Part shown: positions 28,308-46,529 of the stretch, in pieces | Layout: every line of letters starts with the position of its first letter | Numbering within the stretch: the first letter of the stretch is position 1 | Assembly (NCBI GenBank): GCA_018402085.1 | Contig: JAGYJM010000002.1 | Span: forward strand, 1,488,001 to 1,552,000 | Origin: Flavobacteriales bacterium | GTDB taxonomy: Bacteria > Bacteroidota > Bacteroidia > Flavobacteriales_D > Sanyastnellaceae | Reading direction: 5' to 3' | DNA: 64,000 bases | Translations under genes and position numbers: made by a program | Notes under the pieces: generated by a model | Seen by the model: the letters and a program-made list of their open reading frames with translations, nothing else | Database searches by the model: none | What the model was told of the DNA's origin: nothing

Positions 28308-31300
28308 TTACTCACAAGCCTGGCCAAAGGTGCCCAGGAACTGGAGTAGGTCAGAGCTGTTGACGAGTCCGTCACTGTTAAGGTCTTCCGGACATTCGTT
28401 TGCTTCCGGCAGGCATTGCCCCGCGTCTGCATCAAAGTATGTACCCTGTCCGCAGATAGATTCTGAAAGCTGGCATGAGCCATCATCATCTGTTGCCTGT
28501 GGATCGAAGTTAGCTGCAAGCTGGTAGGTGCACCCGGCTATTTCATTCTCATCGCAGACTCCATCGCCGTCCGCATCACTTAAACAATTGCCATCACAAT
28601 CGATGAAGTCAGTAGCGTAAACACAGCTGTCATCATCAAGGTTGGCATTCTCATCGTAGTTGCAGGCCGCTTGATCCGTGCAGCCGGGCACTTCATTTTC
28701 ATCACAAACGCCATTATTGTTTGCGTCGTTCAGGCAATTGCCTTCACAATCAAGCAACGGATCATTTGAGAATTGACATAATCCATCGTTTACCACACTG
28801 ATCTGAGTGAAATCTTCAGGGGTGGTATAGTCATAGTGATAGGTTGTCCAACCACTATTTTGATTTGCCCAATAATAGGTAAGTTCGAAATCAGCGTTAG
28901 CCAGAGCTTGCAAGTGATAGTATGGATTATCTACGATGCCGACAATTGCGCTACCGTAGAAATTCGTCACTTCAAACAAATGGGTATTTCCTGAATAGAG
29001 GCGGAAAGAGTCGCTTTTCGGGCTCTCTCCGAACTCATTATGGATTTCGGTTCCACCGTCTACAAAAACGAGGCGATCAAACGACTGAGTTTCAGAATAG
29101 CCTCCCGTATACGTGATCGTATAATCAACCGGAGCTGAGGGCATCCAGGCCTTAATGTCACATCCGACCAGAATGGCATCAAAGAGAAAATCGTCGTCGC
29201 ATGCATTGATCTGATCAAAGGCAGCATCTAGCGTTAGGTCAGATGCATCAATGGTAAAGGTCAATGTGACCTGGTCATCTTCATTTATTCCGGCAGGTGC
29301 GTTGCCTCCGTTCACCGAAGTTACGGTTGAAGTGAAAGAAACGGTAATGAGCCCGCCATCATCGGTAGCTGTTATGTCATAGTTACATGCGTTTGGATCA
29401 TTGCAACCCGGGACTTCATTTTGATCGCAGATGCCGTCCATATCGAGGTCACCGAGGCAAGTACCACTGCAATCGTATCCTACCTCAGGGTAAGTGCACG
29501 AGCCATCATCCTGCGTAGCGTTTACATCATAATTACAGGCAGCTTCATCTGTGCAACCAAGGCATGATACAAAATCACAGCTCCCGTCATCATCCGTCGC
29601 TTCTGCGACGTAATTACATGCTGTTTGATCCGTGCAACCATCAATTTCAAGCTCATCACAGACTCCATCGCCGTCAGTATCGCTGAGGCACTCATCATCA
29701 CAGTTGTAATAGATTGCAGGATAGATACAAGCAAGGCTTTCAAGAGACACCTGTACCACATCCTGAGGTGTAGTGTAGTCGTAGTGGTATGTTCCCCAAT
29801 TACCCCAGTTCGCCCAGTAAAATGAGAGGTCGAAATCTGCAGATTCGATATCGGCTAATTCTGTGAGCAATTCCATTGAAAGGTTTGTTTTGTAATTGCC
29901 ATCGAAGCGCGCCGCTTCAAAGATGTCGTTAAGGTTGTCGTAGAAAAATATCTGGTCTTGTCGTGGTGATGGGTCTCCAAAACCATAATCCTCGAAACCA
30001 CCATCCACAATCACGATATGCGTGAACGTACCTGATTCAGAATAGCCACTTTCATAAGTAATGGTGTAATCAGAGGGCTCACCCATAGCCCAACTGATGG
30101 CATTGCAGTCAATGAGATCAGGTGAATTACAGAAATTGAGGTTATTCAAATGGTTTTGGTCAGACACGATATTCTCATCTGAGAATGTAACCGTGAAAAT
30201 GACGGAGTCTCCGTCAGCGATTCCGGCCGGATGATTACCCGCGAGGTTGGTGACCTCCGCTGAATTGAACGTGATGCTTGTCAGCCCACCGGGCTCTGTC
30301 GCCGCCGGGTCATAATTGCAGGCAGTTTCATCTGTACATCCTAAAATCTCATTCTCATCACACACTCCATCGCCATCGGCATCGTTCACGCAGTTGCCGT
30401 CGCAGTCGAAGAGCGGATCTTCAGGGTAAGTACAAACTGCTTCATTGGTTATTGACACTTGGGTTACATCACCTGGTGTGGTGTAGTCATAATGATAAGT
30501 CAGCCAACAACATCCCCAGTTAGCGAAGTATTGAGTCATGTCAAAATCAGACTGCAGAAGCGACAAAATATTGGCGTAAATATTCGTCGGAACACCACCC
30601 TGCATGAACTCGCCGTTGAACCTCGTTGCTTTGTACATGTCGTCATTGCCCAGGTAGAGATAGAAGTAATCTTCACGGTTGTTGATTGAACCTAAGAAAT
30701 TCTCAAATCCACCATCTACAAATACCAGGTGATCGAAGGTTCCGGTTTCACTATACCCCCCGGTGTAAGTGATGGTATACTCCGTAGGCTGGGCTGTTTG
30801 CCATGCTTTCATATCGCAACCTTCAATGTTGGGGTTGAATTCATCACAATCATAGTTTGCAGAGAATCCGGGGTTCAGGGTGAGGTCGTTGACATCAACG
30901 GTAAAGCTTAATGTGACCTGATCGCCAACATTCACTCCTGCCGGTAACTGGCCACCAGTTGTAAAAGTGACTTCTGAAATCATTGTAACAGTGATATTAC
31001 CACCGCTATCCGTCACTGACGCATCATAGTTGCAGGCAGTTTGATCGGTGCAGCCGGGTACTTCATTGAGGTCGCACACACCATCACCGTCTGTATCAGA
31101 AAGGCAGACATCATTGCAATCGTAGCCTTGATCCGGGTATTGACACGAGCCGTTATCAAGGGTGGCTGCATTGTCGTAATTGCATGCAAACTGGTCGGTA
31201 CATCCCGCGCAAGACTCAAACTCACAAGTGCTATCGTCTTGCGTAGCTTCATTGTTATAGTTACAAGCTGTTTGATCTGTGCAGCCGAGTACCTCGTCTT

Positions 31301-33536
31301 CATCGCACACGCCGTCACCATCGCTATCGTTGATACAGTTTCCATCGCAATCCAGAAACCCACTGGGGTAAATGCATGCATAAGACTCATAACTGATCAG
31401 TACAATATCCTGAGGTGTAGTATAGTCGTAGTGGTATGTTCCCCAATTACCCCAGTTCGCCCAGTAAAAAGACTTGTCAAACTCCGCATTCTGCAGGTTG
31501 TCGAGGTTATTGAAGAAATCGGTGTAAAGTGTTGGGTAGGTTCCACCATTATTGGTATTCGCCTCGTAAATGTCATTGCCTCCGTCGAAGAATTCGATTC
31601 GGTCAGACCTGTCCCACGGAAACCCGTCTCCAAAATCCTCTATTCCGCCATCTTCCATCACGATTCGGGTGATGCTTCCTGATTCAGAATAGCCACTTTC
31701 GTATGTGATGGTGTAAGAACCGGCCGGAGAGATTTCCCAGCTCAAGAGGTCGCACTCACTTACCCAGGGGTCATCGCAACTTCCCCCTCCGTATCCGGAG
31801 TCATAGGAAATAGCAGAGTCATCGAAGGTAACGGTGAATTCCACCGCATCGTCATCAGCGATTCCGGCCGGATGATTACCCGCGAGGTTGGTTACCGCAG
31901 CCGAATTAAAGGTAAGGGTTGTCGTACCACCGGGATCTGTGGCAGTAGCGTCGTAGTTGCAGGCGTTGCTGTCTGTACAGCCTAAAATTTCATTCTCATC
32001 ACACACTCCGTCACCATCGGCATCGTTCACGCAGTTGCCGTCGCAGTCGAGCAACTCTGAATCCGGATATATGCATGAGCCATCGTCTTGGGTCGCTTCT
32101 AAATCATAATTGCAAGCGTCCTGGTCTGTACAACCATCAATTCCACAAGAATTCAAACCTTCCCATGCAAGCGTAGGATACCCGCCGTTGGCCATGCCTT
32201 CAGCCCAAATGTTTTCTGAGCCATCATCTTCGGTGCACAAAAAGTCCCAATTCACAAAAGTATTTACGTCATGGGGAAAAGTCATTTCAGAGGTAGTTCG
32301 CCCTTCTGCTGTGCCGTCTGAAATGAGTAATCCCGAAGCTTCTGTATCCCAGTATGAATCGGAAATAGTACCTCCATTCACGTCGGCAAAACCATAAGCT
32401 GCATTATCTTCAGAGGTAACGGTTCCTGTGGAGTAACATCGCGTGATTGTAGATCGGTTATGACCTGCGAAACCACCAGATCCAGCGTTATAGCCTGCAG
32501 TTTCAATCACATTGCCTCTTGCGTAGCAATCGGAAATGAGTGTACTATTGTGCCAGCCTACAAATCCACCCACAGCACCTGCACCTACGACGTCGCCAGT
32601 AGCTTTGCACCGAAGAATGTTTACACCTGACATATCTGTGTGGCCACAGAAACCACCTATGTAATTTTCATCAGCTTCTACGAGACCGCGACTTTCACAC
32701 TCCTCAAGAAGGGCATCAAAACGCACAGAACCTACAAAGCCCCCCACTTCAGTAGAACGAATTAGGTCTTGTATATCAGTTGTAGAGATACAGTTTCGGA
32801 CTTCACCTCCATCCATATTTCCAATAAATCCGCCGCAATAGAAAGAAGAACCCGTTAACGCTCCATTGCTCTGCGAATTAGAGATCGTTCCCCCATTCGT
32901 ATTTCGACCTACAAAACCGGCCATCCACTGCGGACTGCTGCAGCAACCTCCATCCAAGCCTTCCACGTTAACGGTTGTTGAGCAACTATCAATCGCACCT
33001 CCTGAGTTCTCACCAGCCAGACCTGCAAAGCTCTGTGCACAATCGAAATATACCTCTCCCGGAAAAAACTCATATTCTTCGCGAAGACCAGTTATACTAC
33101 CTCCTGCTGAACAAGCTACTACTGTGCCTTGGTTTCGTCCCACAAGACCACCAACAGAAAACCTGCCACTGACATCCATGTTTGACAAGTGTACATTTCT
33201 GATTTCGGCGTTGCTTCCTGTTTCACCAAATAATCCAATGTTACTTCCTAACCGATTTATAAATAAGCCACTAATCGTGTGACCGCCACCGTCATATCTA
33301 CCGTTGAAAACCGCAATCGGAAGCCACCCTTCTCCTTCATTGAATGGCGCAACGTCCAAATTTATTGGTGAGGTTTGTAAAAAATGGGCATTCAAGTGGT
33401 TTCTAACTTCATTTAACTGTTCGGCGGTGTTAACCAAATACGGGTCATTAGGTAAGCCCGATCCGCCGTCAAATTGTGCGAATGTCCAATTTGTAAGCAT
33501 GACAAACGTCAACAAGCTTATTACAATCTTTCTCAT
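28308..33536 (-). CDS. Giant surface protein: GLUG repeats and four copies of an unknown domain
   Basis: 1742 residues. Signal peptide 1-21 (WTFAQ). Residues about 80-400 are a right-handed helix of GLUG-type repeats (GGFVGxNxGxIxxCxSxGxV). The rest alternates GCTD repeats with thrombospondin-3-like calcium loops (DADGDGVCDENE). Four GCTD repeats are interrupted by a 175-185-residue domain (first copy about 538-720) that starts like LTFNSAAVTNLAGNHPAGI and ends YWANWGNWGTYHYDYTTPQD. This domain lies between the NYD half and the closing Cys of the repeat. Its opening (P-A-G-I, then a GDxV..FTV strand) weakly recalls a domain of PEP-CTERM proteins; I cannot name it. The C-terminus is SSDLLQFLGTFGQACE. 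Confidence 0.86.
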   Translation of the reverse strand: MRKIVISLLTFVMLTNWTFAQFDGGSGLPNDPYLVNTAEQLNEVRNHLNAHFLQTSPINLDVAPFNEGEGWLPIAVFNGRYDGGGHTISGLFINRLGSNIGLFGETGSNAEIRNVHLSNMDVSGRFSVGGLVGRNQGTVVACSAGGSITGLREEYEFFPGEVYFDCAQSFAGLAGENSGGAIDSCSTTVNVEGLDGGCCSSPQWMAGFVGRNTNGGTISNSQSNGALTGSSFYCGGFIGNMDGGEVRNCISTTDIQDLIRSTEVGGFVGSVRFDALLEECESRGLVEADENYIGGFCGHTDMSGVNILRCKATGDVVGAGAVGGFVGWHNSTLISDCYARGNVIETAGYNAGSGGFAGHNRSTITRCYSTGTVTSEDNAAYGFADVNGGTISDSYWDTEASGLLISDGTAEGRTTSEMTFPHDVNTFVNWDFLCTEDDGSENIWAEGMANGGYPTLAWEGLNSCGIDGCTDQDACNYDLEATQDDGSCIYPDSELLDCDGNCVNDADGDGVCDENEILGCTDSNACNYDATATDPGGTTTLTFNSAAVTNLAGNHPAGIADDDAVEFTVTFDDSAISYDSGYGGGSCDDPWVSECDLLSWEISPAGSYTITYESGYSESGSITRIVMEDGGIEDFGDGFPWDRSDRIEFFDGGNDIYEANTNNGGTYPTLYTDFFNNLDNLQNAEFDKSFYWANWGNWGTYHYDYTTPQDIVLISYESYACIYPSGFLDCDGNCINDSDGDGVCDEDEVLGCTDQTACNYNNEATQDDSTCEFESCAGCTDQFACNYDNAATLDNGSCQYPDQGYDCNDVCLSDTDGDGVCDLNEVPGCTDQTACNYDASVTDSGGNITVTMISEVTFTTGGQLPAGVNVGDQVTLSFTVDVNDLTLNPGFSANYDCDEFNPNIEGCDMKAWQTAQPTEYTITYTGGYSETGTFDHLVFVDGGFENFLGSINNREDYFYLYLGNDDMYKATRFNGEFMQGGVPTNIYANILSLLQSDFDMTQYFANWGCCWLTYHYDYTTPGDVTQVSITNEAVCTYPEDPLFDCDGNCVNDADGDGVCDENEILGCTDETACNYDPAATEPGGLTSITFNSAEVTNLAGNHPAGIADGDSVIFTVTFSDENIVSDQNHLNNLNFCNSPDLIDCNAISWAMGEPSDYTITYESGYSESGTFTHIVIVDGGFEDYGFGDPSPRQDQIFFYDNLNDIFEAARFDGNYKTNLSMELLTELADIESADFDLSFYWANWGNWGTYHYDYTTPQDVVQVSLESLACIYPAIYYNCDDECLSDTDGDGVCDELEIDGCTDQTACNYVAEATDDDGSCDFVSCLGCTDEAACNYDVNATQDDGSCTYPEVGYDCSGTCLGDLDMDGICDQNEVPGCNDPNACNYDITATDDGGLITVSFTSTVTSVNGGNAPAGINEDDQVTLTFTIDASDLTLDAAFDQINACDDDFLFDAILVGCDIKAWMPSAPVDYTITYTGGYSETQSFDRLVFVDGGTEIHNEFGESPKSDSFRLYSGNTHLFEVTNFYGSAIVGIVDNPYYHLQALANADFELTYYWANQNSGWTTYHYDYTTPEDFTQISVVNDGLCQFSNDPLLDCEGNCLNDANNNGVCDENEVPGCTDQAACNYDENANLDDDSCVYATDFIDCDGNCLSDADGDGVCDENEIAGCTYQLAANFDPQATDDDGSCQLSESICGQGTYFDADAGQCLPEANECPEDLNSDGLVNSSDLLQFLGTFGQACE

Positions 33537-33720: not shown

Positions 33721-35667
33721 CTACTCGCAAGCTGTTCCGAAGGTACCCAGGAACTGCAGCAGGTCAGAGCTGTTGACGAGTCCGTCACTGTTCAGATCTT
33801 CCGGACATTCGTTTGGTGTGGGGAGGCATTCACCAGTGGCTATATCAAAGTAGGTACCCTCGCCACAAGCTATCTGGCTGTACACACAACTTCCGTCGTC
33901 TCTTGTAGCGGCGGCATCGTAGTTCTCTGCACCTTCATAGGTGCAACCGTAACAATCAAAGTGGCATGACTGGTCGTCTACATCACTGTTCTCATCATAG
34001 TTGCAGGCCATCGGATCGGTGCAGCCCTGCACTACCGGAATTTCAGAAAACACGCAGCTTCCATCATCGATGGTAGCGACCGGATTGTAGTTCTCTGCAG
34101 CGTCATAGGTGCATCCTGTGTACTCACAGGAGCCGTCATCATCCGTCGCTTCAGCGACGTAATTCACAGCCTCAATATCGGTGCATCCCGAAATTTCTTC
34201 TTCGTCACAGATGCCATCCAGGTCACCGTCATTCAAACAATTCCCCTCGCAGTCGAGGTATGGTAACTCCGGGTAGGTACATGAATTGTCATCATCCGTC
34301 GCTTCTGCGACGTAATTACAGGCAAGGATATCTGTACATCCGGGCACTTCATTTTCATCGCAGATCAAATCGCCGTCAGCATCATTCAAACAGTTGCCGT
34401 TGCAATCAAGATAAGGCTCATCAGGGTAGACACAGCTCTCATCGTTTACGTTTGCAGCCTGATTGTAATTACATGCTGTTGGATCTGTGCAGCCGGGAAT
34501 GGCTTCCGGACAAGTGGTTGCGCACAGGGCGGGCTGAACGTAGTCATAGAACGAACCGAGCGACAAAAAATAGTTGTTGATATTGTCATGGGCCAAAAAA
34601 CTACCGGGCAAACTGTTATCATGACGCTGCATGAGGTAGTGGCGATTTCCTGACCAGAAGAACTCTCCATTATTCTGCACCCACACCTGGTCCATGAACC
34701 CTATGCCTATCGAATCTGCCCACTGTTCAATGTTGGTGATCTGCTCAAGATCGGTCCAGTCTGCCAGTGCGTATTCAGGTCCAAATTCGTCAATGCACTG
34801 TTGGTTGGGATCCGCCTGTTCATTGAACGAAGTACTCGTTAATGTGAATTGCGGCTGATCGAGTTCAAAGGTCAGGCAAGAACCGTCATCAATGGTTGCT
34901 TCAGGGTCGTACTGACAGCTCAGAGGGTCTGTACATCCGGAAATATCCCCTATGCAGTTGCAGTTTGCGTCAATCAGATCGTTTATGCTAGCCGGATTTC
35001 CATCATCACAGGGGTCTCCGGGATAGGTCAGGCACGAGCCATCATTGACTTCTGCATCCGGATTGTATTCGCAACTCAAGGGGTCTGTGCACCCCAAAAG
35101 CTGACCAACGCAATCACAATTCTCATTTACCGAGTCATTCAGCGTTTGCAGATTACCATCGTCGCAAAGGTCTCCGGGATAGGTGAAGCAAAGGTTGTCA
35201 TCTTCTGTCGCCGCAGGGTTGTAATCGCAGCTTGACGGATCCATGCAGCCGGGCACTGATACTATCTGGGTATTCTTGCAAAGCACATACCGGTTTCCCT
35301 GCCAGGAACCCAGGTCAATAAAGTTGTTTGCGATATCGTCATGCACAAGCCACCCACCCGGAGTATTCCCATTGTGACGTGCCATAAAATAGTGCCGGTT
35401 GGCACTGTAGAAGTACACGCCATTTTGCCTCAGGTAGACTTCCTGATTCAGCATAAACCCGATCGAATCAGACCATTGCACGATGTTCGGAATGGCTTGC
35501 ACATCGCTCCAGTCGGCCACGTACGATTGCTCCCCATAGGCGTCACGACATACCTGCTCAAGGTCTGCCAGGTGGCTGTGTGTATCGGGGGTAATACTCA
35601 GGCTTTCTTGCGCATTGCTTTGTACAATAAAGCTAAACACAAACGATAGAAAACAAATAAAACGCAT
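33721..35667 (-). CDS. Surface protein with GCTD repeats and a duplicated unknown domain
   Basis: 648 residues. Signal peptide 1-20 (SFIVQSNAQ). Two copies of an unknown domain of about 110 residues (about 22-135 and 268-385), each with VADWSDVQ/LADWTDLE, a WADSIG segment, an ANRHYFMARHNG/GNRHYLMQRHDN motif and HDDIANNFIDLGSW. Between and after them are about ten GCTD repeats, some with DGDLDGICDEEE calcium-type loops. The C-terminal module is nearly identical to that of the upstream-numbered GLUG protein (SSDLLQFLGTFGTACE), which suggests a shared route to the surface. It could be an adhesin or a scaffold. Confidence 0.82.
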   Translation of the reverse strand: MRFICFLSFVFSFIVQSNAQESLSITPDTHSHLADLEQVCRDAYGEQSYVADWSDVQAIPNIVQWSDSIGFMLNQEVYLRQNGVYFYSANRHYFMARHNGNTPGGWLVHDDIANNFIDLGSWQGNRYVLCKNTQIVSVPGCMDPSSCDYNPAATEDDNLCFTYPGDLCDDGNLQTLNDSVNENCDCVGQLLGCTDPLSCEYNPDAEVNDGSCLTYPGDPCDDGNPASINDLIDANCNCIGDISGCTDPLSCQYDPEATIDDGSCLTFELDQPQFTLTSTSFNEQADPNQQCIDEFGPEYALADWTDLEQITNIEQWADSIGIGFMDQVWVQNNGEFFWSGNRHYLMQRHDNSLPGSFLAHDNINNYFLSLGSFYDYVQPALCATTCPEAIPGCTDPTACNYNQAANVNDESCVYPDEPYLDCNGNCLNDADGDLICDENEVPGCTDILACNYVAEATDDDNSCTYPELPYLDCEGNCLNDGDLDGICDEEEISGCTDIEAVNYVAEATDDDGSCEYTGCTYDAAENYNPVATIDDGSCVFSEIPVVQGCTDPMACNYDENSDVDDQSCHFDCYGCTYEGAENYDAAATRDDGSCVYSQIACGEGTYFDIATGECLPTPNECPEDLNSDGLVNSSDLLQFLGTFGTACE

Positions 35668-35936: not shown

Positions 35937-36375
35937 TTACGGACAAGCGGTTCCGAAGATGCCCAGGAATTGGAGCAGGTCGGATGAATTTACCAGGTCA
36001 TCGCCATTGAAATCTCCGGTGCAACTGAAATTGCAGTTACCATCATCGACGGTAGCCGCGGGGTCGTAGTTGAAGCCGTTCTCATAGGTACAGCCGGTGA
36101 TCTCTTCAAGGTCACAAACGCCGTTGTTGTTGTAATCAGCGATACAGTTGCCTGCGCAGTCATACCCCTCCAGCGGATAGGTACAGGTGCCGTTATCGGT
36201 CTCTGCTGCGGGGTCGTAGTTGCAAGCGTCTTCGTAGGTGCAACCTTCTACTCCTGTTGGTGCGCAGACCTCATTGCCAGCACAGTCGAAGCCTTCTGCA
36301 GGATAGGTACAGCTACCGTCATCTGAAGTGGCCGCAGGATCATAGTTGCAAGCTTCTTCATAGGTGCAGCCGCAG
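35937..36375. repeat. Near-identical 3' cassette, copy 1
   Basis: About 435 bp encoding four GCTD-type cysteine repeats and the C-terminal module. It is almost identical to 41091-41530 in the neighbouring gene, with scattered single-base changes. The matching part of the LamG gene (21523-21960) is clearly more diverged. Confidence 0.9.
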
Positions 36376-39300
36376 GTTTCAGAAGAGGCCTCAAGTGATA
36401 AGCTGTTCTCAAATGAGCAGCCATTTTGATCAACAACGGTGAAGTTATAGGATCCGGGTGTTGTTGGGGTGCTGCCTTGCGACCAGTTCAGTGTAAACGG
36501 TTCAGTTCCGCCGGCAGCCGACCAATTCAGCACGATGCTGTCATTGCAGGCGTTGAAAAGTCCGCTTGCTGAAGCTACCAACGGAAGCGGCTGCGTTATC
36601 ACAAATGTAGTGTCAAGCGAACAACCGATGCTGTCAGTAAGGGCAAGGAAATGTGCCTCAGGGGTCAGTGCAAGCGGGTCAGAGCCGCCCCAATCAAACT
36701 GATAGGGCAATATTCCACCATCAGCGGTCGCCAGAGCAGTGCCATCGGCAGCTCCAAAGCAAGAGACGTTCACCAAATCAAGATCCAGTTCGAGGTCGCT
36801 CACACGAATAAATACGCTATCCGCACACTGGCCTATGCCATTTTCATAGGAAGCTATCAGCAAGGTATCACCGGCCGGGGTGAACGTGAACGGATCATTG
36901 TTCACACCATTTGACCAGAAATAGGCCTGGGAGTCATCCAATACTTCAAGCAGCAATGAGGTTCCCACACAAACAGATGTATCTTCTTGTTGAATCTGCA
37001 TCTCCGCGAAATAAGCGTAAAGTGAATCCTGCGTGGCACATCCTATGCTATCAGTCACCTCAACCGTATAAGTTCCGGTTGCTGAAATTGCAATCGTATC
37101 TGTGGTTTCAGCGGTACTCCAAAGGTAGCTTTCCCATTCCTGCTCCAGGGCGATTGGATACTCTGAGAGCGAACAGAGTAAAATCGAGTCCTGATCAAAT
37201 GAAGCCTGCGGATTGCTGACGTTCACCTGCACGCTGTCTGTGCACGTCATTACACCGTCAGAAATGACCACATGGTACCATTCAAGCGAGTCTGGTGCCA
37301 CGATGATAGAATCTGCTGTCTCTCCTGTTGACCAGAGGATATCGCTATAAGAGACTTCAGAAACGACTTGAACACTGAAATCATCGAACGCCCAGCTTTC
37401 ATCACACAAACTTTGCAGACCGGCGGCTGAGAATTGCATTTCAAGTGACGACCCTGAATGTGGAATCGTTTTTGAAATCATATACTTGAAACCGTCCATC
37501 GCAAAACAAAAACCATCAATGACGCCCTCGCTCGTTGTTCCGTAAGGGTTTGATGCAGGGCAATCATAAGGATAGCATTGCGACTTATTGCTGAACGAAG
37601 TGAAATTGGTGCTTAGCACGTTCTCACCATCGGCGGTCCAGGTCCATAATTCATCACCATTCGAGCCATTTCCATCCCACGAGTCAATCGCATAGAAAGT
37701 GAATGACACCGTGACTTCCTGATGAGGAGGCAAACCCTGCAGATTCAGGGTGACCGTTTCATTTGCGAAGTTCCCGAAAACTTGTGAATCATCAATGTTT
37801 ACACGATCTGTCCGGCTCCATTCGTTGCCGACGGGTGCTTCAAAATCATTAAAGTAAAACTGACTACCACTGAGGTTCGGGTCGTTCACCACTAACTGAG
37901 CGCTGTCTCCTATGCAAATGATGGTGTCCGGTGTCATGATCTCGCCATTGACGATGGAAACAAGCACACTGTCTGATACCTCACAACCAAATGCATCTTG
38001 TCCGGTAACCGTGTAAGTATCACTGAATGAGACGTAATTCTGCTGATCTGTGCTTCCGTTTGACCAAAAGTATGCTTCAAATCCTGCGGGGGCCTCCAGT
38101 AGCACACTGTCAACAGCACACAGAGAAATAGTGTCATTCATCAATTGCAATACCGGATTGCTGACATCCACGGTGATCTCATCGGTACAGGTGAGGTCTT
38201 CATTGCTTACCTCGAGGGTATACACCGATTGTGACTGGGGAGCAACGTTAATCAGCTCATCCGTTTCGCCCGTAGACCATAGAATATCTGCATACACCTC
38301 ACTCTGACCGTAAGAGGCTTGTACCGTCAGCCATTTACCGGTTCCGTCACAAGGATCGACAAATGTATCATTGTCAACCGGGATGGTACAGGTACTTTGA
38401 CCAAGGCAAAGGCTCTCTACGATTTGAGAAGATGATGCGGCATGACAGGCTCCAATAGCAAAACTACCGCATGAGCCTGAGGCTGTGCCGTAGCTTGCAA
38501 AGTCAATTGAATTAAAAACGGTACCGGCAGGTGCGGTAAGGGTCAATGACCCTGATTGTTCTGTGGCCGTCCCGCAAACTGTACCTGAGTTATTGATTTG
38601 TGGAATGTTCTCAACAAATAGATCCAGTGAATCGCCAATACAAATTGTAGTGTCAGAAGGCATGATGCCTGAACCCAGCACCCATAGATAGATGGTATCT
38701 GATGCCTGGCAGCCCAGCGAGTCAGTGACCTGTACGCTGTATTCACCAAACTGGAAAGGCTCAATCGAAGCGGTTGAAGCCCCGGTCGACCAGTCATAGG
38801 CTGCGTAGCCGAGACCTGCTTCCAGACTGAATCCTTCACCGCCACATACGCTCAGGGTATCCGGGCCCAGATCCACAAAGGGCAATGAAAGAGCTACATT
38901 CACCGTATCATAACAAGTGATAAGCCCGTTACTCACCTCCACACTCACGGTAGTGTCAGACAAAGCGGTGTAGGTGTATGATTCATCTTCAGAGCCGTCA
39001 AACCAATTGATGTTTTGTGGAAAAGTACCGGCATCTGAGTCAACTGCAAACGTTATTTCGTCTCCTTGGCAGAGGAAGAGGCTGTCAGGTCCAATCTCAG
39101 CACTCATGAGCGAAACCCATACAGCAGCCGTATCTGCGCAAAACAATGAGTCGGTTACAATAAGCTCATATACGCCGCTTTCTGTCACCTCAATGCCATC
39201 TGCCGTGCTGCCGTCTGACCAGAGGTAGGTGCTGTAACCGGCCGGAGCATTCACCTGCAGGGTATCTACCCCACAAAAGGTCAGCGTATCTTCAGCGAAG

Positions 39301-41054
39301 CTGAGTGAAGGATTATTCACTTCAATCTGTATGCTGTCTGAGCAGGCAAGACCATTGAAGCTCACTGTTGAAACCAGCCAAAGATCTTCATCAGGATACA
39401 GGGCCACACCGGGCGTCTCTGCCCCCGTTGACCATTCAATATCAGCCGATGTCACTGCTCCACTCCACGTTGCTTCAACAGCAAGAATTTTATTGATGCC
39501 TTGACAAGGGTCTGCGAAAACATCGTTTGAAGCCTCCACGGTGCAGCTATTCTGCCCGAGGCAGGCAGCCTCTACAATCTGGAGGGTATTGCCTGAATGG
39601 CAGTTTCCTATCTCGAAGTTACCACATGACCCGGTCGGCGTTCCATAACTTGCAAAGTCAATTGAAGTAATGACCGCCCCGGGAGGCGCGGTGAGTGTAA
39701 TGGACTCATCGTTGATCTCAATAGCTGTATCGCAGATAGTGCCACTTTCGCCCTCCATGATCAGCTCATTCACGTTGGCCTCAAACAGTGTTGCCGCACA
39801 GATAGTTGTGTCGCCTTGCACAATGCCCTGACCAAGCACATACGCGCGCAAGCTGTCACTTGAAGTACAACCCAACGAATCGGTAACGGTCAGCGAATAA
39901 AGGCCGGAAGTATTGTACGAAATCGATTGTGTGTCCTCGCCTGTACTCCAATTATACAACGCATAACCAGGAGGTCCGGTGAGGGTTTCTGCTTCAAAGC
40001 CGCACCTTGTTATGGTATCGGTCTCGAAGTTGACTTCGGGTGTTGACACCAGTATCTGCGCTGAATCTGTGCAAGAAAAAAGACCATTGCTGACTTCTAC
40101 CTGAACAAGCGTATCGCTGAAAACGGTGTAATTGCTTTGTTCACTTGTGCTGCCATCGTTCCAAAGTACCGTTTGCAACAGCGGTTCTGTGTCTGTTTCG
40201 AGGGTAAACTGCACTTCTGTTCCAGCGCAAAAGCGCTGGGATGCGAAATCCAGTCGGGCATCCAAAATGGATATCACTGCGCTGTCAGAAGCGACGCATC
40301 CAATAGAGTCGGTCACGCTGAGACTGAAAACACCTGAAACCGAAACCGTAATGGATGGCGTTGACTCACCAGTGCTCCAGTTGTATTCATTAAATGATCC
40401 CGGCGCACTCAACAGCACTTCTGCAGGAGCACAAACTGACAAGGTGTCAACTCCAAGGTTGAGGTTCACTGCTTGCGGACTAATGAAAATGCTGTCTTCG
40501 CACAAGACTCCCTGATCATCGAGTTCAACAGCTATCCAGGCTGAAGAGTCTGCTACGAAAACAAAGTCAGAAGCCGTGCTGCCATCAGACCAAACCACTG
40601 ATGGCGGTGTGATCAAAGATGAATACTCCATTTCAACCGTCAATCGCTTGGGTAAGCCAGGACAAGGGTCATCAAAAATGTCGTTCGCTGCCTCGATCGT
40701 AAAACTACCGTTGCCCAGGGCGGCTGCTTCGACGATGGCCACAGAGCTTGAGGCATGGCAAGAAGATGTTGTGTAGCTTCCACAACTGCCATTCGGGGTT
40801 CCGTAGCTTGCAAATATCACATCCGTAAAGACGGCACCCGCCGGCGCAGTCATGGTCAGAGTGCCATTCTCTAAAACGGTTTGGCAAATTGTGCCCGTTG
40901 CTGCTTCAGGCACATTATGAGCTGAAAGCACGACCTCTTCCCCCGGGCATACGAATAGGGTATCAGGACCAAGGTCGACCGGACAGCCATCCTGCGCTTT
41001 TGCGCAGAAAGGAAGCAGAAGAATGAGGAACAATCCTCTAAAAGCATTTTTCAT
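35937..41054 (-). CDS. Giant surface protein with three SUEL-type lectin domains
   Basis: 1705 residues. Signal peptide ends CAKAQ (residue 21). A chain of Ig-like repeats (DTTICxGDSxxL, YxWSTGxxT, LxVTDSxGCxxSDS) carries three SUEL/rhamnose-binding lectin domains at about 54-146, 438-531 and 823-916. Each has FASYGTxxGSCG, a CH motif, EAACLGQNSC or equivalent, and a DPCxGxxK close. About 1065-1235 is a different beta domain (SWDGNGSNGDELW, SLCDESWAFDDF). All four insertions sit between the VxLxV strand and the WSTG strand of the Ig repeat, and uninserted repeats show the same junction. A SprB repeat (about 1428-1495), four GCTD repeats and SSDLLQFLGIFGTACP end the protein. It starts 36 bp after the C-type lectin gene, so the two form an operon. 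Confidence 0.88.
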   Translation of the reverse strand: MKNAFRGLFLILLLPFCAKAQDGCPVDLGPDTLFVCPGEEVVLSAHNVPEAATGTICQTVLENGTLTMTAPAGAVFTDVIFASYGTPNGSCGSYTTSSCHASSSVAIVEAAALGNGSFTIEAANDIFDDPCPGLPKRLTVEMEYSSLITPPSVVWSDGSTASDFVFVADSSAWIAVELDDQGVLCEDSIFISPQAVNLNLGVDTLSVCAPAEVLLSAPGSFNEYNWSTGESTPSITVSVSGVFSLSVTDSIGCVASDSAVISILDARLDFASQRFCAGTEVQFTLETDTEPLLQTVLWNDGSTSEQSNYTVFSDTLVQVEVSNGLFSCTDSAQILVSTPEVNFETDTITRCGFEAETLTGPPGYALYNWSTGEDTQSISYNTSGLYSLTVTDSLGCTSSDSLRAYVLGQGIVQGDTTICAATLFEANVNELIMEGESGTICDTAIEINDESITLTAPPGAVITSIDFASYGTPTGSCGNFEIGNCHSGNTLQIVEAACLGQNSCTVEASNDVFADPCQGINKILAVEATWSGAVTSADIEWSTGAETPGVALYPDEDLWLVSTVSFNGLACSDSIQIEVNNPSLSFAEDTLTFCGVDTLQVNAPAGYSTYLWSDGSTADGIEVTESGVYELIVTDSLFCADTAAVWVSLMSAEIGPDSLFLCQGDEITFAVDSDAGTFPQNINWFDGSEDESYTYTALSDTTVSVEVSNGLITCYDTVNVALSLPFVDLGPDTLSVCGGEGFSLEAGLGYAAYDWSTGASTASIEPFQFGEYSVQVTDSLGCQASDTIYLWVLGSGIMPSDTTICIGDSLDLFVENIPQINNSGTVCGTATEQSGSLTLTAPAGTVFNSIDFASYGTASGSCGSFAIGACHAASSSQIVESLCLGQSTCTIPVDNDTFVDPCDGTGKWLTVQASYGQSEVYADILWSTGETDELINVAPQSQSVYTLEVSNEDLTCTDEITVDVSNPVLQLMNDTISLCAVDSVLLEAPAGFEAYFWSNGSTDQQNYVSFSDTYTVTGQDAFGCEVSDSVLVSIVNGEIMTPDTIICIGDSAQLVVNDPNLSGSQFYFNDFEAPVGNEWSRTDRVNIDDSQVFGNFANETVTLNLQGLPPHQEVTVSFTFYAIDSWDGNGSNGDELWTWTADGENVLSTNFTSFSNKSQCYPYDCPASNPYGTTSEGVIDGFCFAMDGFKYMISKTIPHSGSSLEMQFSAAGLQSLCDESWAFDDFSVQVVSEVSYSDILWSTGETADSIIVAPDSLEWYHVVISDGVMTCTDSVQVNVSNPQASFDQDSILLCSLSEYPIALEQEWESYLWSTAETTDTIAISATGTYTVEVTDSIGCATQDSLYAYFAEMQIQQEDTSVCVGTSLLLEVLDDSQAYFWSNGVNNDPFTFTPAGDTLLIASYENGIGQCADSVFIRVSDLELDLDLVNVSCFGAADGTALATADGGILPYQFDWGGSDPLALTPEAHFLALTDSIGCSLDTTFVITQPLPLVASASGLFNACNDSIVLNWSAAGGTEPFTLNWSQGSTPTTPGSYNFTVVDQNGCSFENSLSLEASSETCGCTYEEACNYDPAATSDDGSCTYPAEGFDCAGNEVCAPTGVEGCTYEDACNYDPAAETDNGTCTYPLEGYDCAGNCIADYNNNGVCDLEEITGCTYENGFNYDPAATVDDGNCNFSCTGDFNGDDLVNSSDLLQFLGIFGTACP
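40222..40244. repeat. GGATG-tagged hairpin inside the SUEL-lectin gene
   Basis: CCAGCGC-AAAA-GCGCTGG then GATGC, in frame as SQRFCAG within an Ig-like repeat. Confidence 0.65.
40988..41012. repeat. GGATG-tagged hairpin in the SUEL-lectin signal peptide
   Basis: CATCC then TGCGC-TTTT-GCGCA, read on the minus strand as FCAKAQDG at the cleavage site. It is the same 24 bases as at 9203 and 15124. Confidence 0.8.
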
Positions 41055-41090
41055 AACCTACGAATTGCTGTGCGTTTAAAGAGGCTTTTA

Positions 41091-41530
41091 TTAAGGACAA
41101 GCGGTTCCGAAGATGCCCAGGAACTGGAGCAGGTCGGATGAATTTACCAGGTCATCGCCATTGAAATCTCCGGTGCAACTGAAATTGCAGTTACCATCAT
41201 CGACGGTAGCCGCGGGGTCGTAGTTGAAGCCGTTCTCGTAGGTACAACCGGTGATCTCTTCAAGGTCACAAACGCCGTTGTTGTTGTAATCAGCGATACA
41301 GTTGCCTGCGCAGTCATACCCCTCCAGCGGATAGGTACAGGTGCCGTTATCGGTCTCTGCTGCGGGGTCGTAGTTGCAGGCGTCTTCGTAGGTGCAACCT
41401 TCTACTCCTGTTGGTGCGCAGACCTCATTGCCAGCACAGTCGAATCCTTCTGCAGGATAGGTACAGCTACCATCATCTGAAGTGGCCGCAGGATCATAGT
41501 TACAAGCTTCTTCATAGGTGCAGCCGCAGG
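41091..41530. repeat. Near-identical 3' cassette, copy 2
   Basis: Counterpart of 35937-36375 in the C-type lectin gene. Identity breaks off at the SSETCG codons, where the SprB/Ig part of each protein begins. Confidence 0.9.
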
Positions 41531-44500
41531 TTTCAGAAGAGGCCGGTACCATTACGGTCTGCTCTGCTTCACAACCGTTCGCGTCGAGTGCTGAAAGGGT
41601 GTACTCTCCCGGTGCTGCAGCATCAGGATCGATACCGCCAACATCAAAGGTGTAAGGCGTTGTGCCTCCGGTCGCTTGCGGAATGATCACCCCATCTGCC
41701 CCGGCACAAACCGGAGGAAGTGCGGTGCTGTAAAGGAAGAAAGGTGCAGGCTCGGTCATTTGAAGGACGGTATCCACCGTGCAGCCTATCGAGTCGGTCA
41801 CAGTGAGTGCGTAGCTTCCTTTGCCAACCTGGGCAGGATTGAAGCCGTTCCAGTCAAAGCTGTAAGGTTCAATTCCGGCAGAAGGATTGACGATGAACGA
41901 TCCGTTCAGCGAATCGTAGCAGCTCGGTTCAGTGAGCAATACTTCAAGCGCGATATCACTTACACTGACTGCAGCTGTATCGAAACAGGTCGCTATGCCG
42001 TCAAATACCTGGTAAACGATGAGGGTATCGGCTTCAGGAGTGATGTCAAAAGTAGCTCCCGTAATATCACCCGGCCAGGTGACTGTTTCATTGTTGAGTG
42101 TCAACTCAAAATTCACTTCGCTACCGATGCACAATGTGGTATCACGAATGTTGATTGCCGGCGACACGAAGAAGTGTGCGTAGGTGGTATCCGCATTTAC
42201 ACACCCGAGGCTATCGGTGACTGTAACGCTGTAGTCACCGTCTTGTCCTACAGTGATTACGTTGCTGGTTTCACCGGTGTTCCAGGAGAAAGTGCTGGCG
42301 TCTACTTGTGGGTCAAGTAATAGGCTGTCAGCTTCACACACAATCAGGGTGTCTCCACCGAGGAAGGGCTGCGGAAGCAGGTTGACCTCCACAAAGATGC
42401 TGTCTGTACAGGTTGTGATGCCATCAGATACGGAAACGCCATACAAGAATGTTGAATCAGCCACCAGGGTAAGCTCAGGGATGGTATCACCGGTTGACCA
42501 GATGATTTCGAGCTCTGTACCGCCGCTAAACTCGCATACGCTGAGATAAGCTTGATCTCCATCTACGTCATTCCAGTCATTGGTCGAACGGATGTGGACG
42601 TAGTCTTCACCTGCGCCTGAATCGCTCGGTTCGTTGCTTCCCCAGTTGGTATAGGTCACCGGCTCGCCCGTGACCCATTCAAAGGTGCCTTCCTGGTTCA
42701 CATCATTCAGACCGATATAAATGTTTGAAGAAGACAGTCCGGCCACCAGGTTCTGCTCAGCGAGTGAGGTAATCGTCGCGAGATGTCCGCCCACATTTGT
42801 GCAGTTCGCTTCAGAGGTTGCGTAATTCGCCGTACCATTTGAGATGAAATAGTAATTGCCGTTCAATTCACCTCCGTAGCTGTATCCGGGCAGCTGGGTG
42901 TTTTCATTGACGTTGGTATTGACGGTGTTCAGGATGAGTTCCTGTCCGAAACAAATCGAAGTATCGTTCTGCGCGATCGTTGCATCCACGAGGCTCAGGA
43001 AGAGGGTATCATTGGTGATGCAGGCACCTTCGTCTACTTCAATGGTGTATAGTCCGCTGCTGTTGACGGTTGTTGAGGTGCTGTCAGATCCGGTGCTCCA
43101 GAGGTAGCTGCTGAAGCCTGCTTCAGCAGTGAGTGTAGTTTCTGCGCCACATACCTGAACCGTGTCACTTTCAAAAGCGAATTGAGGTGTATTCACCGTC
43201 ACCTGAACGGTATCGCTGCAGATTTGTACGCCGTTGTCAATGGTCACGTAGTAAGTGGTTGTTGTATCCGGCGTTGCGGTGATCGATGCAGTGGTATCGC
43301 CTGTAGACCAAAGGATGTCAAGACCCGGGATTGCATCAAACTCGCAGGTATAGCGACGAGAACCGCTCACTGAATTATCATTCCAGGTTCCTGCTGTATT
43401 GAAGTGTGCATAATGCTCAACGTTTCCGGAGTTGTTGGGTTCGATGCCCCCCCAGTTGGTATAGGTCACCGGTTCTCCATTTACCCAAACCCATTCGTCT
43501 TCAACGGCTTCATCGGTGAAACCAATCCATTGCTCGGTGGACGGAAATAAGTTTCTGATAAAGTTATTTTCTGCAGCTGAGCCAATCACAGAAAGGTAGC
43601 CTCCCTGAGAAGCACATGCATTGGCAGCGTTGGTCCAGTTTGCGGTACCTGTTGAAGTATAATAATAGTTGCCATTGAACTCACCTGCGAAAGAAAGTCC
43701 ATCCAGATCATCCGGCGCTTCTGCGCCGCCGGCTGCAATCGTCATCGTCACGGTCTCACCTGCGCAGATGTTCTGATCACCCTCCTGAATGGTTGGATCG
43801 AGCATGAAGACGTTCAGTGTATCTTCTGTAATGCAAGCCCCTTCATCTACCGTGGCGCTGTAAATTCCTGTCTCAGAAATGGTCAGGGTTTGGCCGCTAG
43901 CTCCTGTACTCCATGCAACCGACTCCCATCCTGTTCCGGCATCGAGAATAGTCTCGCTGTCACAGATAAAAAGTGAATCGAGTCCGAAATCAAACTGAGG
44001 TTCAAATACGTTCACAGCAACCGTATCTGTGCAGGTTTGGAACTCGTCGGTCACCGTCACGAAGTAGATCGAATCAGCGACCGGCGAAACGGTTATGGCT
44101 TCAGTGGTATCACCCGTAGACCATTGAATGTCAACCGTAGTCAGGTTGGTGAATTCGCAGACAAAGGTGTTCAATATGGCATCATTGGGCATGTCGTTCC
44201 ACTCACCGGTTGAGCCGCTCATTTCTCCGTAATGTTCTATACCACCGGAGTTATTTGGCTCATTTGGCGTATTCCAGTTGGTGTAGGTTACCGGCTCGCC
44301 CGTGACCCATTGCCAGTCGCCCTCAACATCTTGATCGGTAAAGCCGATCCATTGTCTTGTAGGTGAATGAATCGAGAGGATAAAGTTGTTTTCTGCTGCT
44401 GAATTGATGGTCACGAGGTGGCCACCGAGTCCGCTGCAGGTGCTCTGTGCGTTGGTCCAACTCTGTGACTGCCCGCTGATGTAGTATTGGCTGTCACCAA

Positions 44501-46529
44501 ATTCCCCTCCATAGTTGAGTCCAACTATATCGCCGGGCTGAGTAGCATTTTGATTGATACTAAAAGTCACTGAATCGCCGAGGCAAATATCCTGATCGTC
44601 TTCAATGATGTTCGCTTTAAGCAAGAACAGCTCAAGTGTATCTGCAGAAGTGCAGGCCCCTTCGTCAACGTCAACATAGTATTGACCAGATTCTGTAACG
44701 GTAATCGTCTGTGTAGTTTCACCGGTATTCCACAGGTATGACGCCATGCCTGCACCGGCATCGAGGATCGCTTCAGGTCCGCAGACATACAGGGTATCTT
44801 CCGGGAGTTCGTACTGTGGGGTGAACACCTCAATGAGGACTGAATCAGTGCATGTTTGATTCTCATCGGTGAGAGTGAGCGTGTACCAGGTGTCCTGAGT
44901 AGGCTGTACATTAATGCTGTTATCCGTAGATCCGGTGCTCCATTCAAGCGCAACGTCGTTGAATTCAGAGACTTCACAAACGAAACGCTGAGCAGAGAGT
45001 CCGCTCACATCATTCCAGTCGCCAAATGCAGTCATTACGGTAAAGTCTTCGCCTCCTGCACCAGGGTCAGAGTCATTCGGTTCACCGCTGTTCCAGTTGG
45101 TGTACGTAACCGGGTCACCGTTCATCCACGTAAAGGTGCCTTCATTATTCTCATCGGTAAAGCCGATGTACACCTGGCTGTTTCCGGTGAAACTGTTAAT
45201 GAAGTTGTTCTCAGCAGCACTGTTAATCGAAACCAAATAGCCACCGTTGTCTTCGCAGGCCGTTCTGGCATTGGCTACCGGCGAGGTACCATTCGAGTAG
45301 TAGTATTCACTTCCGTTGAACTCACCCTCGAAAGAGAAACCGGCAAAATCGCCGCCTCCGGATGGAGTAGTCACTGCTGATAGGGTTACACTCTCACCGA
45401 GGCAGATTTGTTGGTTGCCCTCAGCAATGCTCGGGTCGAGAATAATAACCTCAAGGGTGTCTTCAGCTATACAAGCGCCTTCGTTCACGGCTAAAGAGAA
45501 AGTGCCTTCTCCGGCGTCAATGGATTGGGTTGTTTCGCCGGTACTCCAGAGATAACCTTCAGCGACCCCTGCATCGAGCGTAGTTGTTGGTCCACACGCA
45601 TAGAGGGTATCTTGTGCAAAGGAGAACTGGGGATTTTCTACTGAGACAGTGATGCTGTCGGTACAGGTTTGAATGCCATTATCGAAGGTTACGTAGTAGG
45701 TTGTTGTTACGGATGGAGAGACCGTGATGCTGTTACCCGTTTCATTGGTACTCCAGGTCACTTCTACGTTCTGACCTCCGTCAAATTCGATCAGAAACGG
45801 GAAACTGGCTGTACCGTCAAGGTCGTTCCATTCAGCGTCTTCCTGCATTTCGCCGTAATGCTCAGCACCTTGCAGGTTATTGGGTTCGGGAGACGGACCG
45901 CCTTCCCAGTTGGTGTAAGTTACAGGTTCTCCGCTGAGCCACACCCAGTCGCCTTCTGTGGCTTCATCGGTGAAGCCGATCCATTGGCGGACAGCAGGGT
46001 TGGCCGCATGGACGAACGCATTCTCTGCTGCACTGTTGATGGAAACCAGGTACCCACCTTCTGCATTCGCACGATCGCGGGCATTGGGCCACGTGTCTGT
46101 ATCGGGCGACTGATAGTAGAAATGCCCGTCGAGCTCGCCGTAAAAGGAGAACCCTTCCGGATCAGGGGCGATACCGCTGTATGCGACGGTGGCACTCAGT
46201 GTAAGGCTTTCACCTGCACAGATGGTGGTATCCGGCTGATTAATTGCTCCGTTCAAAAGGTCAACGTAGACACTGTCAGTAATCGTACACAGCGCAGATG
46301 TAGCCGTCAATGTGTAATATCCTGAGGCATCTGCTACGATGTTGGTTGATGTTTCTCCTGTGCTCCATGAGTAGGTGTCAAAATCAGTCGGACCCATAAG
46401 GGTGGTGGTGTCCACCTGACAGAGTACGATACTGTCTTGAAAGGTGAAGCTGCAATCCTGGGCTTTGAGGGTATTGGCCGTAATAGCGAGAACAGCCACT
46501 AAGGCTAGTAAAGTTAAAGTTGAGCGCAT
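41091..46529 (-). CDS. Giant surface protein with five C-type lectin domains
   Basis: 1812 residues. Signal peptide 1-24 (ANTLKAQ). Five C-type lectin-like domains at about 128-249, 398-520, 670-792, 944-1065 and 1216-1334, each with GGYLVSINSAAENxF, WIGFTDxxxEGxWxW and EPVTYTNW. The first four carry an EPN motif and all five have WND, the calcium-site pair typical of mannose-type sugar binding; the fifth has EPS instead. Each lectin domain is inserted in an Ig-like repeat between (I/L)CxGESVTLS and the WSTG strand. Empty repeats, a SprB-like region (about 1530-1600), four GCTD repeats and SSDLLQFLGIFGTACP follow. First gene of an operon with the SUEL-lectin gene. Confidence 0.9.
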   Translation of the reverse strand: MRSTLTLLALVAVLAITANTLKAQDCSFTFQDSIVLCQVDTTTLMGPTDFDTYSWSTGETSTNIVADASGYYTLTATSALCTITDSVYVDLLNGAINQPDTTICAGESLTLSATVAYSGIAPDPEGFSFYGELDGHFYYQSPDTDTWPNARDRANAEGGYLVSINSAAENAFVHAANPAVRQWIGFTDEATEGDWVWLSGEPVTYTNWEGGPSPEPNNLQGAEHYGEMQEDAEWNDLDGTASFPFLIEFDGGQNVEVTWSTNETGNSITVSPSVTTTYYVTFDNGIQTCTDSITVSVENPQFSFAQDTLYACGPTTTLDAGVAEGYLWSTGETTQSIDAGEGTFSLAVNEGACIAEDTLEVIILDPSIAEGNQQICLGESVTLSAVTTPSGGGDFAGFSFEGEFNGSEYYYSNGTSPVANARTACEDNGGYLVSINSAAENNFINSFTGNSQVYIGFTDENNEGTFTWMNGDPVTYTNWNSGEPNDSDPGAGGEDFTVMTAFGDWNDVSGLSAQRFVCEVSEFNDVALEWSTGSTDNSINVQPTQDTWYTLTLTDENQTCTDSVLIEVFTPQYELPEDTLYVCGPEAILDAGAGMASYLWNTGETTQTITVTESGQYYVDVDEGACTSADTLELFLLKANIIEDDQDICLGDSVTFSINQNATQPGDIVGLNYGGEFGDSQYYISGQSQSWTNAQSTCSGLGGHLVTINSAAENNFILSIHSPTRQWIGFTDQDVEGDWQWVTGEPVTYTNWNTPNEPNNSGGIEHYGEMSGSTGEWNDMPNDAILNTFVCEFTNLTTVDIQWSTGDTTEAITVSPVADSIYFVTVTDEFQTCTDTVAVNVFEPQFDFGLDSLFICDSETILDAGTGWESVAWSTGASGQTLTISETGIYSATVDEGACITEDTLNVFMLDPTIQEGDQNICAGETVTMTIAAGGAEAPDDLDGLSFAGEFNGNYYYTSTGTANWTNAANACASQGGYLSVIGSAAENNFIRNLFPSTEQWIGFTDEAVEDEWVWVNGEPVTYTNWGGIEPNNSGNVEHYAHFNTAGTWNDNSVSGSRRYTCEFDAIPGLDILWSTGDTTASITATPDTTTTYYVTIDNGVQICSDTVQVTVNTPQFAFESDTVQVCGAETTLTAEAGFSSYLWSTGSDSTSTTVNSSGLYTIEVDEGACITNDTLFLSLVDATIAQNDTSICFGQELILNTVNTNVNENTQLPGYSYGGELNGNYYFISNGTANYATSEANCTNVGGHLATITSLAEQNLVAGLSSSNIYIGLNDVNQEGTFEWVTGEPVTYTNWGSNEPSDSGAGEDYVHIRSTNDWNDVDGDQAYLSVCEFSGGTELEIIWSTGDTIPELTLVADSTFLYGVSVSDGITTCTDSIFVEVNLLPQPFLGGDTLIVCEADSLLLDPQVDASTFSWNTGETSNVITVGQDGDYSVTVTDSLGCVNADTTYAHFFVSPAINIRDTTLCIGSEVNFELTLNNETVTWPGDITGATFDITPEADTLIVYQVFDGIATCFDTAAVSVSDIALEVLLTEPSCYDSLNGSFIVNPSAGIEPYSFDWNGFNPAQVGKGSYALTVTDSIGCTVDTVLQMTEPAPFFLYSTALPPVCAGADGVIIPQATGGTTPYTFDVGGIDPDAAAPGEYTLSALDANGCEAEQTVMVPASSETCGCTYEEACNYDPAATSDDGSCTYPAEGFDCAGNEVCAPTGVEGCTYEDACNYDPAAETDNGTCTYPLEGYDCAGNCIADYNNNGVCDLEEITGCTYENGFNYDPAATVDDGNCNFSCTGDFNGDDLVNSSDLLQFLGIFGTACP
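43709..43728. repeat. CATCC-tagged hairpin in a lectin-domain linker
   Basis: CATCC then GGCGC-TTCT-GCGCC, read as GGAEAPDD exactly at the junction between the Ig strand and the fourth C-type lectin domain. Confidence 0.7.

Follow-up and report, generated by a model that had tools for sequence, protein, structure and literature searches.

Lectins and other domains are inserted within the immunoglobulin-like (Ig-like) repeats of long proteins encoded by a Flavobacteriales bacterium of the family Sanyastnellaceae. The window analyzed is the whole 64,000-nucleotide stretch from positions 1,488,001 to 1,552,000 of contig JAGYJM010000002.1 (assembly GCA_018402085.1), and coordinates given below are counted from its first letter. 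Three of its gene products, designated G1, G2 and N5, are probably modular adhesin-type arrays, in which payload domains are carried in sockets of split Ig repeats, displayed multivalently and turned over in the course of evolution. The socket between the second and third strands (BC slot) was filled in 10 of the 16 repeats of one type (type 2) versus none of the 18 repeats of the other (type 1), the remaining six type-2 repeats being short. The hypergeometric probability of this restriction is ~6e-5, by hand arithmetic and with types set by eye.

Genes and repeat scaffold

G1 (41091-46529, 1812 amino acids) and G2 (35937-41054, 1705 amino acids) are adjacent on the minus strand with a spacing of 36 bp, exactly where an earlier note on this DNA, made from the sequence alone, had placed them. 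They are followed by three further repeat proteins: N3 (33721-35667), N4 (28308-33536) and N5 (21523-27837, minus strand, 2104 amino acids).

The backbone of G1, G2 and N5 is an Ig-like repeat of ~69 residues, which occurs 34 times in the three proteins (18 of type 1 and 16 of type 2, mostly alternating). Repeat boundaries were set by hand, and types were assigned by eye from position and from the end motif, which reads ...DSLGCxxxD... or ...DEGACxxxD... in type 1 and ...TCTDSVxVxVxN... in type 2. G1 contains six plain type-1 repeats alternating with six of type 2, five of which are filled with C-type lectin (CTL) domains and one of which is empty. G2 contains six plain type-1 and seven type-2 repeats (three filled with SUEL-type lectins, one with a further beta domain, three empty), and its Ig array is followed by a SprB repeat and a C-terminal tail. 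N5 contains six type-1 repeats, four of them with a LamG domain in the loop between the last two strands (FG slot), and three of type 2 (one filled with the beta domain, two empty). The strand names A, B, C, E, F and G, and hence the names of the sockets, are the authors' assignment. The Ig_7/CHU_C-associated family PF19081 was not matched in G1 or G2 at E-values up to 1; a protein from a relative (L177) matches it at 6.1e-07.

Payloads of the type-2 repeats

The BC payloads of the three proteins comprise five CTLs, three SUEL domains and two copies of one beta domain, the latter shared between G2 and N5. PF00059 was matched in five stretches of G1 (E 6.1e-99; 326.5 bits for the whole protein against a cut-off of 22.6, and 57.1-86.6 bits for single copies), and PF02140 in three stretches of G2 (E 4.6e-48; 76.3, 62.9 and 50.9 bits against a cut-off of 31.4). 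The motifs EPN (or QPD) and WND are Ca2+ and sugar motifs of C-type lectins; in G1, four of the five copies carry EPN, the fifth carries EPS, and WND is present in all five. The beta domain of G2 had no Pfam match at E-values up to 0.5, and the NCBIfam scan gave only two weak matches, both under the cut-off.

The division of the repeats was analyzed with a profile for which only uninterrupted repeats were used (20, from G1, G2 and N5), and which was then run on the 14 filled ones. The filled repeats were matched in two complementary pieces that sum to one domain, clearly so in nine of the ten BC-filled repeats. In these nine, the left pieces start at profile positions 3-8 and end at 21-28 (at 38 in the beta-domain repeat of N5); they are short and weak, with independent E-values (i-E) of 3.9e-05 to 0.039. 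The right pieces, found in all ten, begin at 18-29 and end at 67-69, with i-E of 5.8e-06 to 2.7e-11. Both the split profile and the structure model described below place the insertion point after profile position ~25, following the second strand. By eye, the eight lectins and the beta domain of G2 are flanked by a strand ending in CxGxxVxLx, with variants allowed, and then by WSTG or WSDG.

The CTL inserts of G1 lie at 45765-46181 (with linkers), 44952-45365, 44133-44546 and 43320-43727, all four placed by profile and split test, and at 42510-42914, the copy with EPS in place of EPN, which was also the one modelled. The empty type-2 repeat of G1 (41955-42167), recognized by inspection, is part of the same model at low confidence. 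In G2, SUEL domains occupy 40602-40916 and 38289-38603 (both by Pfam and split test, the position homologous to the latter being empty in N5) and 39444-39761 (by Pfam); the left half of the split was not significant for this last insert. Empty type-2 repeats lie at 40041-40262 and 38883-39104, both by inspection, and at 36795-37004 (residues 1351-1420). The beta domains, located by split test, occupy 37344-37877 in G2, where no Pfam or NCBIfam family was found for them, and 22939-23463 in N5. All of these features are on the minus strand, as are those of N5 listed below.

For structure prediction with AlphaFold2, a segment comprising a type-1, a CTL-filled type-2, a type-1 and an empty type-2 repeat was modelled from an alignment of 12 rows, drawn from the window and two other loci (L023 and L024). 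The best model had a mean predicted local distance difference test (pLDDT) score of 78.4 and a predicted template modelling score (pTM) of 0.45. A plain repeat forms six strands in the model (residues 9-13, 17-20, 27-30, 38-41, 45-52 and 57-67), and the filled repeat forms the same series (76-79, 83-88, 227-230, 238-242, 247-254 and 259-269), with the CTL (about 100-225) as a single long gap between the second and third strands. The linkers that flank it (91-98 and 222-224) have pLDDT under 50. The modelled CTL superimposes on mannose-binding protein C (1kza_1) with a Z-score of 20.5 and a root mean square deviation (rmsd) of 1.4 over 115 aligned residues, and among the 50 matches listed the structural neighbours are lectin or CTL-fold chains. 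The model thus agrees with a predicted position of the lectin within one Ig domain, not between domains.

The earlier note had described two adjacent genes with five CTLs, three SUEL domains and one beta domain, all in one slot of an Ig-like repeat, together with repeats whose slot is empty. The domain content was confirmed by Pfam, with matches well over the cut-offs of both lectin families, and by inspection; the slot was recovered by the split profile and by the model of one filled copy. The flanking motifs recur, with the variants given, at all nine inserts, and the empty repeat which the note quoted is that at residues 1351-1420 of G2. On the sequence evidence, the present analysis adds that the socket belongs to one of two alternating repeat types, that a second socket holds LamG, and that the beta domain is also found in N5.

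A second socket in N5

Judged from the sequences, the type-1 repeats of N5 appear to carry a second socket, nearer the repeat end, which holds LamG. The FG slot was filled in four of the 18 type-1 versus none of the 16 type-2 repeats. PF13385 (Laminin_G_3) was matched in four stretches of N5 (146.1 bits for the whole protein against a cut-off of 27.6), and the four repeats concerned are split with a left piece that ends at profile positions 52-56 and a right piece starting at 53-58. In all four cases, the LamG domain is followed by the motif Cxx[STA]D[ST], versus rates of 0.003-0.019 each for shuffled sequence. The LamG inserts, assigned by Pfam and split test, lie at 26737-27354, 25825-26442, 24916-25545 and 24007-24636.

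Filled and empty repeats at homologous positions

The repeats at residues 725-1420 of G2 and 1012-1816 of N5 pair one to one. The in-register pair had the top score of its row in five of six cases, the exception being the first pair, whose score of 114 was exceeded by two plain type-1 repeats (135 and 117). In-register identities were 44, 49, 57, 41, 43 and 37%, of which four were the sole highest, one was tied (37%) and one was second (41% versus 44%). In order, the states in G2 and N5 were plain and LamG-filled (FG), SUEL-filled and empty (BC), plain and plain, beta-filled in both, plain and plain, and empty in both. The SUEL-filled repeat of G2 (residues 794-966) shares 49% identity with its positional homolog, the empty N5 repeat at 23743-23970; their score of 150 is the highest of both row and column. 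Of the evidence collected here, this in-register comparison speaks most strongly for the gain or loss of a payload at a repeat already in place.

Sockets and payloads in related bacteria

The Ig repeats were matched in all 61 genomes of the family that were searched, that of the present bacterium included; in the two other genomes of the genus that were searched, neither lectin was found by these profiles. An automatic insertion scan of 18 selected loci together with G1, G2 and N5 called 30 BC, one FG and three C-E insertions. The scan was conservative: it failed to call the inserts of a G2 ortholog (L019), any of the five inserts in N5, and two of the three SUEL domains of G2.

The BC payloads of relatives include CTLs and SUEL domains, together with other families recognized when eight BC inserts were selected and scanned with Pfam. 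These gave LamG (two inserts) and Glyco_hydro_2_N (31.9 bits, cut-off 28), matches below the cut-off to Lcl_C (30.5 versus 34.9) and ArabFuran-catal (24.4 versus 25), and three inserts without a family. A single protein (L177) carries three LamG-like inserts and one Lcl_C-like insert in BC slots, and a protein from another genus (L176) carries a CTL and then a LamG in successive BC slots, as well as LamG in an FG slot, with a second FG LamG seen by eye. SUEL domains occupy BC slots again in two further genomes, G099 (L020) and G769 (L179), and, by eye, the BC slot of another Ig-like repeat in G461 (L144). In G085 (by eye) and G685 they occupy a different loop, within SprB-like repeats, and in G094 they seem, by eye, to lie at an FG position. 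In a further set of loci (L146-L175), looked over by eye, 40 LamG domains were found in 28 of 30 loci, few of them in this Ig repeat. One LamG kind, marked by GNANDESGNGNNGTVNGATLTxDRFG, is found in BC slots but is also seen close to N termini, where no Ig repeat surrounds it.

Some candidates were set aside. The SUEL match of G109 (L145) had no clear reading frame and was excluded from the context counts; no insertion was called in L182. An insert of L022 resembled the PA-IL lectin, for which Pfam gave no match, and was left unnamed. The genome that encodes G1 and G2 also has a second cluster (L018:5929-13758), in which CTLs interrupt SprB-type repeats at a different loop (the scan called two of the three), and the C termini of its proteins resemble, by eye, a type A tail of the type IX secretion system (T9SS).

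A survey of CTLs covered 109 loci (80 named and 29 of the order) and 197 CTL domains, after five short ones among 202 matches were dropped. Its split test used the authors' own thresholds and profiles grown from uninterrupted copies, iteratively for the HYR and SprB profiles. Split HYR domains accounted for 45 of the CTLs and split repeats of the present kind for 11, and 141 were not called. Split calls numbered 56 of 197 with the real flanks versus 4 of 3940 with shuffled flanks; re-paired flanks gave 84 of 985, where ~8% would be expected for random pairing of true halves (hand arithmetic). With groups sorted from record titles and profiles biased to Bacteroidota, split CTLs made up 44 of 70 in Bacteroidota (in 24 of 36 loci), 12 of 37 in the order (in 9 of 29 loci) and none of 90 in the 44 loci of other named records; for three of these the title was simply "bacterium". 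Some loci overlap (L103 repeats a portion of L023, and L129 a portion of L036), so that not every count is independent. Of the 26 uncalled CTLs of Bacteroidota, many are arranged in tandem or have other domains on either side; insertion is thus common but not the rule.

Pfam recognizes both HYR and Lectin_C in L036. In this locus, as in L046, L031, L029, L037 and others, CTLs split the HYR domain at a near-constant point (profile position ~35 of 74); the records concerned include Saprospiraceae and Flavobacteriales. The CTL flanks of L023 are identical to those of L103, which is from a genome of the same family (G016); the L023 record, which holds the closest relative of G1, is a metagenome-assembled genome titled Chryseobacterium gleum and may be mislabelled.

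The comparison across genomes bears out the shared socket of the earlier note, which holds other families in relatives; in the window itself, one homologous G2/N5 pair is filled in one member and empty in the other. Its "one fixed insertion site" did not survive as a single site: there are at least two, and the HYR and SprB-type families of Ig-like domains are also interrupted.

C-terminal tails and secretion

The C-terminal tails of G1 (41094-41543) and G2 (35940-36389), both on the minus strand, are identical over 150 residues. At the DNA level, over 153 codons, the G1 tail is 96.7% identical to that of G2 and 84.5% identical to that of N5. The common tail is also seen in N5 at 21523-21980, as GCTYxxxxNYDPxA repeats followed by GDFNGDxLVNSSDLLxFLGxFG. 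Its last 52 residues have 131 matches in the genome, many of them partial, and the tail could be a signal for sorting or anchoring that has not been described before. It differs from the T9SS tails carried by two relatives (PF18962 in L177, PF13585 in L179). A T9SS translocon is indicated in the genome by an SprA_N match (E 3.6e-125, G000:C2:2719168-2720723). This match is divided between two reading frames and contains an in-frame TGA, which represents a sequencing error or a lesion. Signal peptides were judged by eye.

The neighbouring N4 contains four beta-rich units of ~170 residues each, located between GCTDPxACNYD-like motifs and each with HYDYTTP. Apart from a weak match to DUF7141, Pfam recognized only Glug in N4, outside these units.

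Interpretation and alternatives

G1, G2 and N5 would be long modular adhesin-type proteins, presumably secreted and exposed at the cell surface, on a backbone of two alternating Ig-like repeat types. In a filled type-2 repeat, the chain would exit the Ig domain after strand B, fold a complete lectin and re-enter to finish the domain; in type-1 repeats of N5, LamG would be accommodated likewise between strands F and G. The Ig repeats would act as spacers from which the lectins bud sideways, giving a multivalent and multi-specific display toward glycans. Ca2+-dependent binding with mannose-class specificity would be expected of the EPN-type CTLs, and the galactose/rhamnose class of the SUEL payloads. 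Over evolutionary time, payloads would be gained, lost and replaced at the loops, while the scaffold persists. From the sequences, the BC loop looks like a standard socket for multi-lectin adhesins.

Several observations weigh against this interpretation. For the SUEL-filled repeat at residues 408-581 of G2, the left piece covers only profile positions 7-16 and is not significant (i-E 1.3), and the right pieces at the FG socket comprise only ~12 residues (i-E 0.23-0.97). The AlphaFold2 model of a LamG-filled repeat, built from four alignment rows, reached a pLDDT of 36.4 and was discarded, so that the FG slot rests on sequence. Three of the five models of the CTL segment were poor (pLDDT 78, 77, 53, 52 and 51); the pTM of the best is such that relative domain orientation is not readable from it, residues 362-382 of its empty repeat fall under pLDDT 50, and strand pairing was read from the DSSP order for one CTL copy only. 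No T9SS sorting domain of type A or B exceeded the cut-off in G1, G2 or N5 in Pfam or NCBIfam. Finally, L019, the G2 ortholog from a different genus of the family, matches G2 in the order of its payloads (three SUEL domains and the beta domain), so that any exchange would be slow.

The same conserved order favours an alternative in which an old, fixed unit of split Ig plus lectin spread only by duplication of the unit, filled and empty repeats being separate lineages. The CTL copies of G1 and of its ortholog L023 (five versus six) likewise resemble unit duplications. Against this stands the SUEL-filled repeat of G2 (residues 794-966), whose closest counterpart is an empty N5 repeat within an array that is in register and in which the preceding pair is plain and LamG-filled; moreover, one kind of LamG is found both outside Ig repeats and in BC slots. 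The fixed unit is considered a rather unlikely account.

The arrays might, alternatively, help the cell to forage on polysaccharides or hold its own matrix together, instead of attaching it to a foreign surface. The LamG, GH2_N-like and ArabFuran-like payloads of relatives belong to carbohydrate-associated families, and the surface lectin RemA is described as acting through galactose-containing extracellular polysaccharide of neighbouring cells (PMC8481357). Pfam, however, detected no polysaccharide-utilization enzymes among the neighbours scanned (12622-46529 of the window); a weak TonB-receptor-like plug match lies at 12622-15186, and the adjacent genes encode further repeat proteins. Such a role is judged improbable to about the same degree as the fixed unit.

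An arrangement of beads on a string, with each lectin between two complete small domains whose sequences merely resemble Ig halves, is very improbable: the left halves are indeed short and weak alone, one of ten not being significant, but of the 69 profile positions the left flanks cover no more than the first ~25, and the right flanks cover the rest, the model of one copy has two strands before the lectin and four after it, and split calls in the CTL survey all but vanish when flanks are shuffled.

If the preferred reading of socketed adhesin arrays is extended beyond these proteins, Bacteroidota may, tentatively, share a general architecture, with fixed sockets in several Ig-like families (the GhpA-related repeat discussed below, HYR and SprB-type), unrelated glycan-binding folds exchanged along one fibre, and the glycan range tuned by domain swap and not by loop change. 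It is conceivable, with similar reserve, that the two sockets of the GhpA-related repeat correspond to the loops of complementarity-determining regions 1 (BC) and 3 (FG) of antibodies. In practice, candidate ligand-binding domains in giant Bacteroidota proteins could be found by a sequence-only rule, the presence of an insert behind position ~25 or ~53 of the repeat profile, and the rule also flags domains without a family, such as the beta domain of G2 and N5. Proteins with both filled and empty repeats provide natural controls for how one site accepts unrelated folds.

Comparison with known systems

The vertebrate mannose receptor and mannose-binding protein have the same CTL fold and an EPN/WND-type site. 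In vertebrate CTL receptors and collectins, the CTL domains are tandem or terminal, and are not known to lie inside Ig domains. In Bacteroidota, the lectin of RemA from Flavobacterium johnsoniae is presumably of the SUEL type. RemA is a T9SS-secreted adhesin with a lectin domain, and the parts of the two accounts that were accessible (PMC8481357, PMC12618676) do not mention a split-Ig arrangement. The literature searches made showed no description of the present arrangement in Bacteroidota, subscription papers not being covered.

On sequence grounds, the scaffold is related to the repeats of GhpA, the grappling-hook protein of Aureispira (PDB 9flp and others), to which the uninterrupted Ig repeats match by profile in 12 stretches (E 1.1e-35). 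GhpA was also the top Foldseek row for the model (E 8.2e-14), but with an rmsd of 44 and a template modelling score of 0.23, so that the likeness is that of a chain of Ig domains and not a superposition. The spacing of the matches, ~83 residues over long stretches, suggests that the GhpA repeats are plain.

The closest parallel in principle is found in the RTX adhesins, such as FrhA of Vibrio cholerae, AhLap of Aeromonas hydrophila and MpIBP, in which, according to two reports (PMC10865825, PMC12077191), a ligand-binding domain, often sugar-binding, emerges from a discontinuous Ig-like domain, with Ig-like extenders between. No RTX family was matched in G1 or G2 by Pfam at E-values up to 1. 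In FrhA, as described there, just one strand precedes the insert, with 12 residues of the Ig-like domain ahead of it and 106 behind, in contrast to the second strand in the BC slot and to the strand before the last in the FG slot of N5. The split-domain principle is extended to another phylum, scaffold and set of loops, and to other payloads. Unlike in the RTX adhesins, the sockets here recur along the chain, one and the same socket accepts several payload families, and empty sockets coexist with filled ones.

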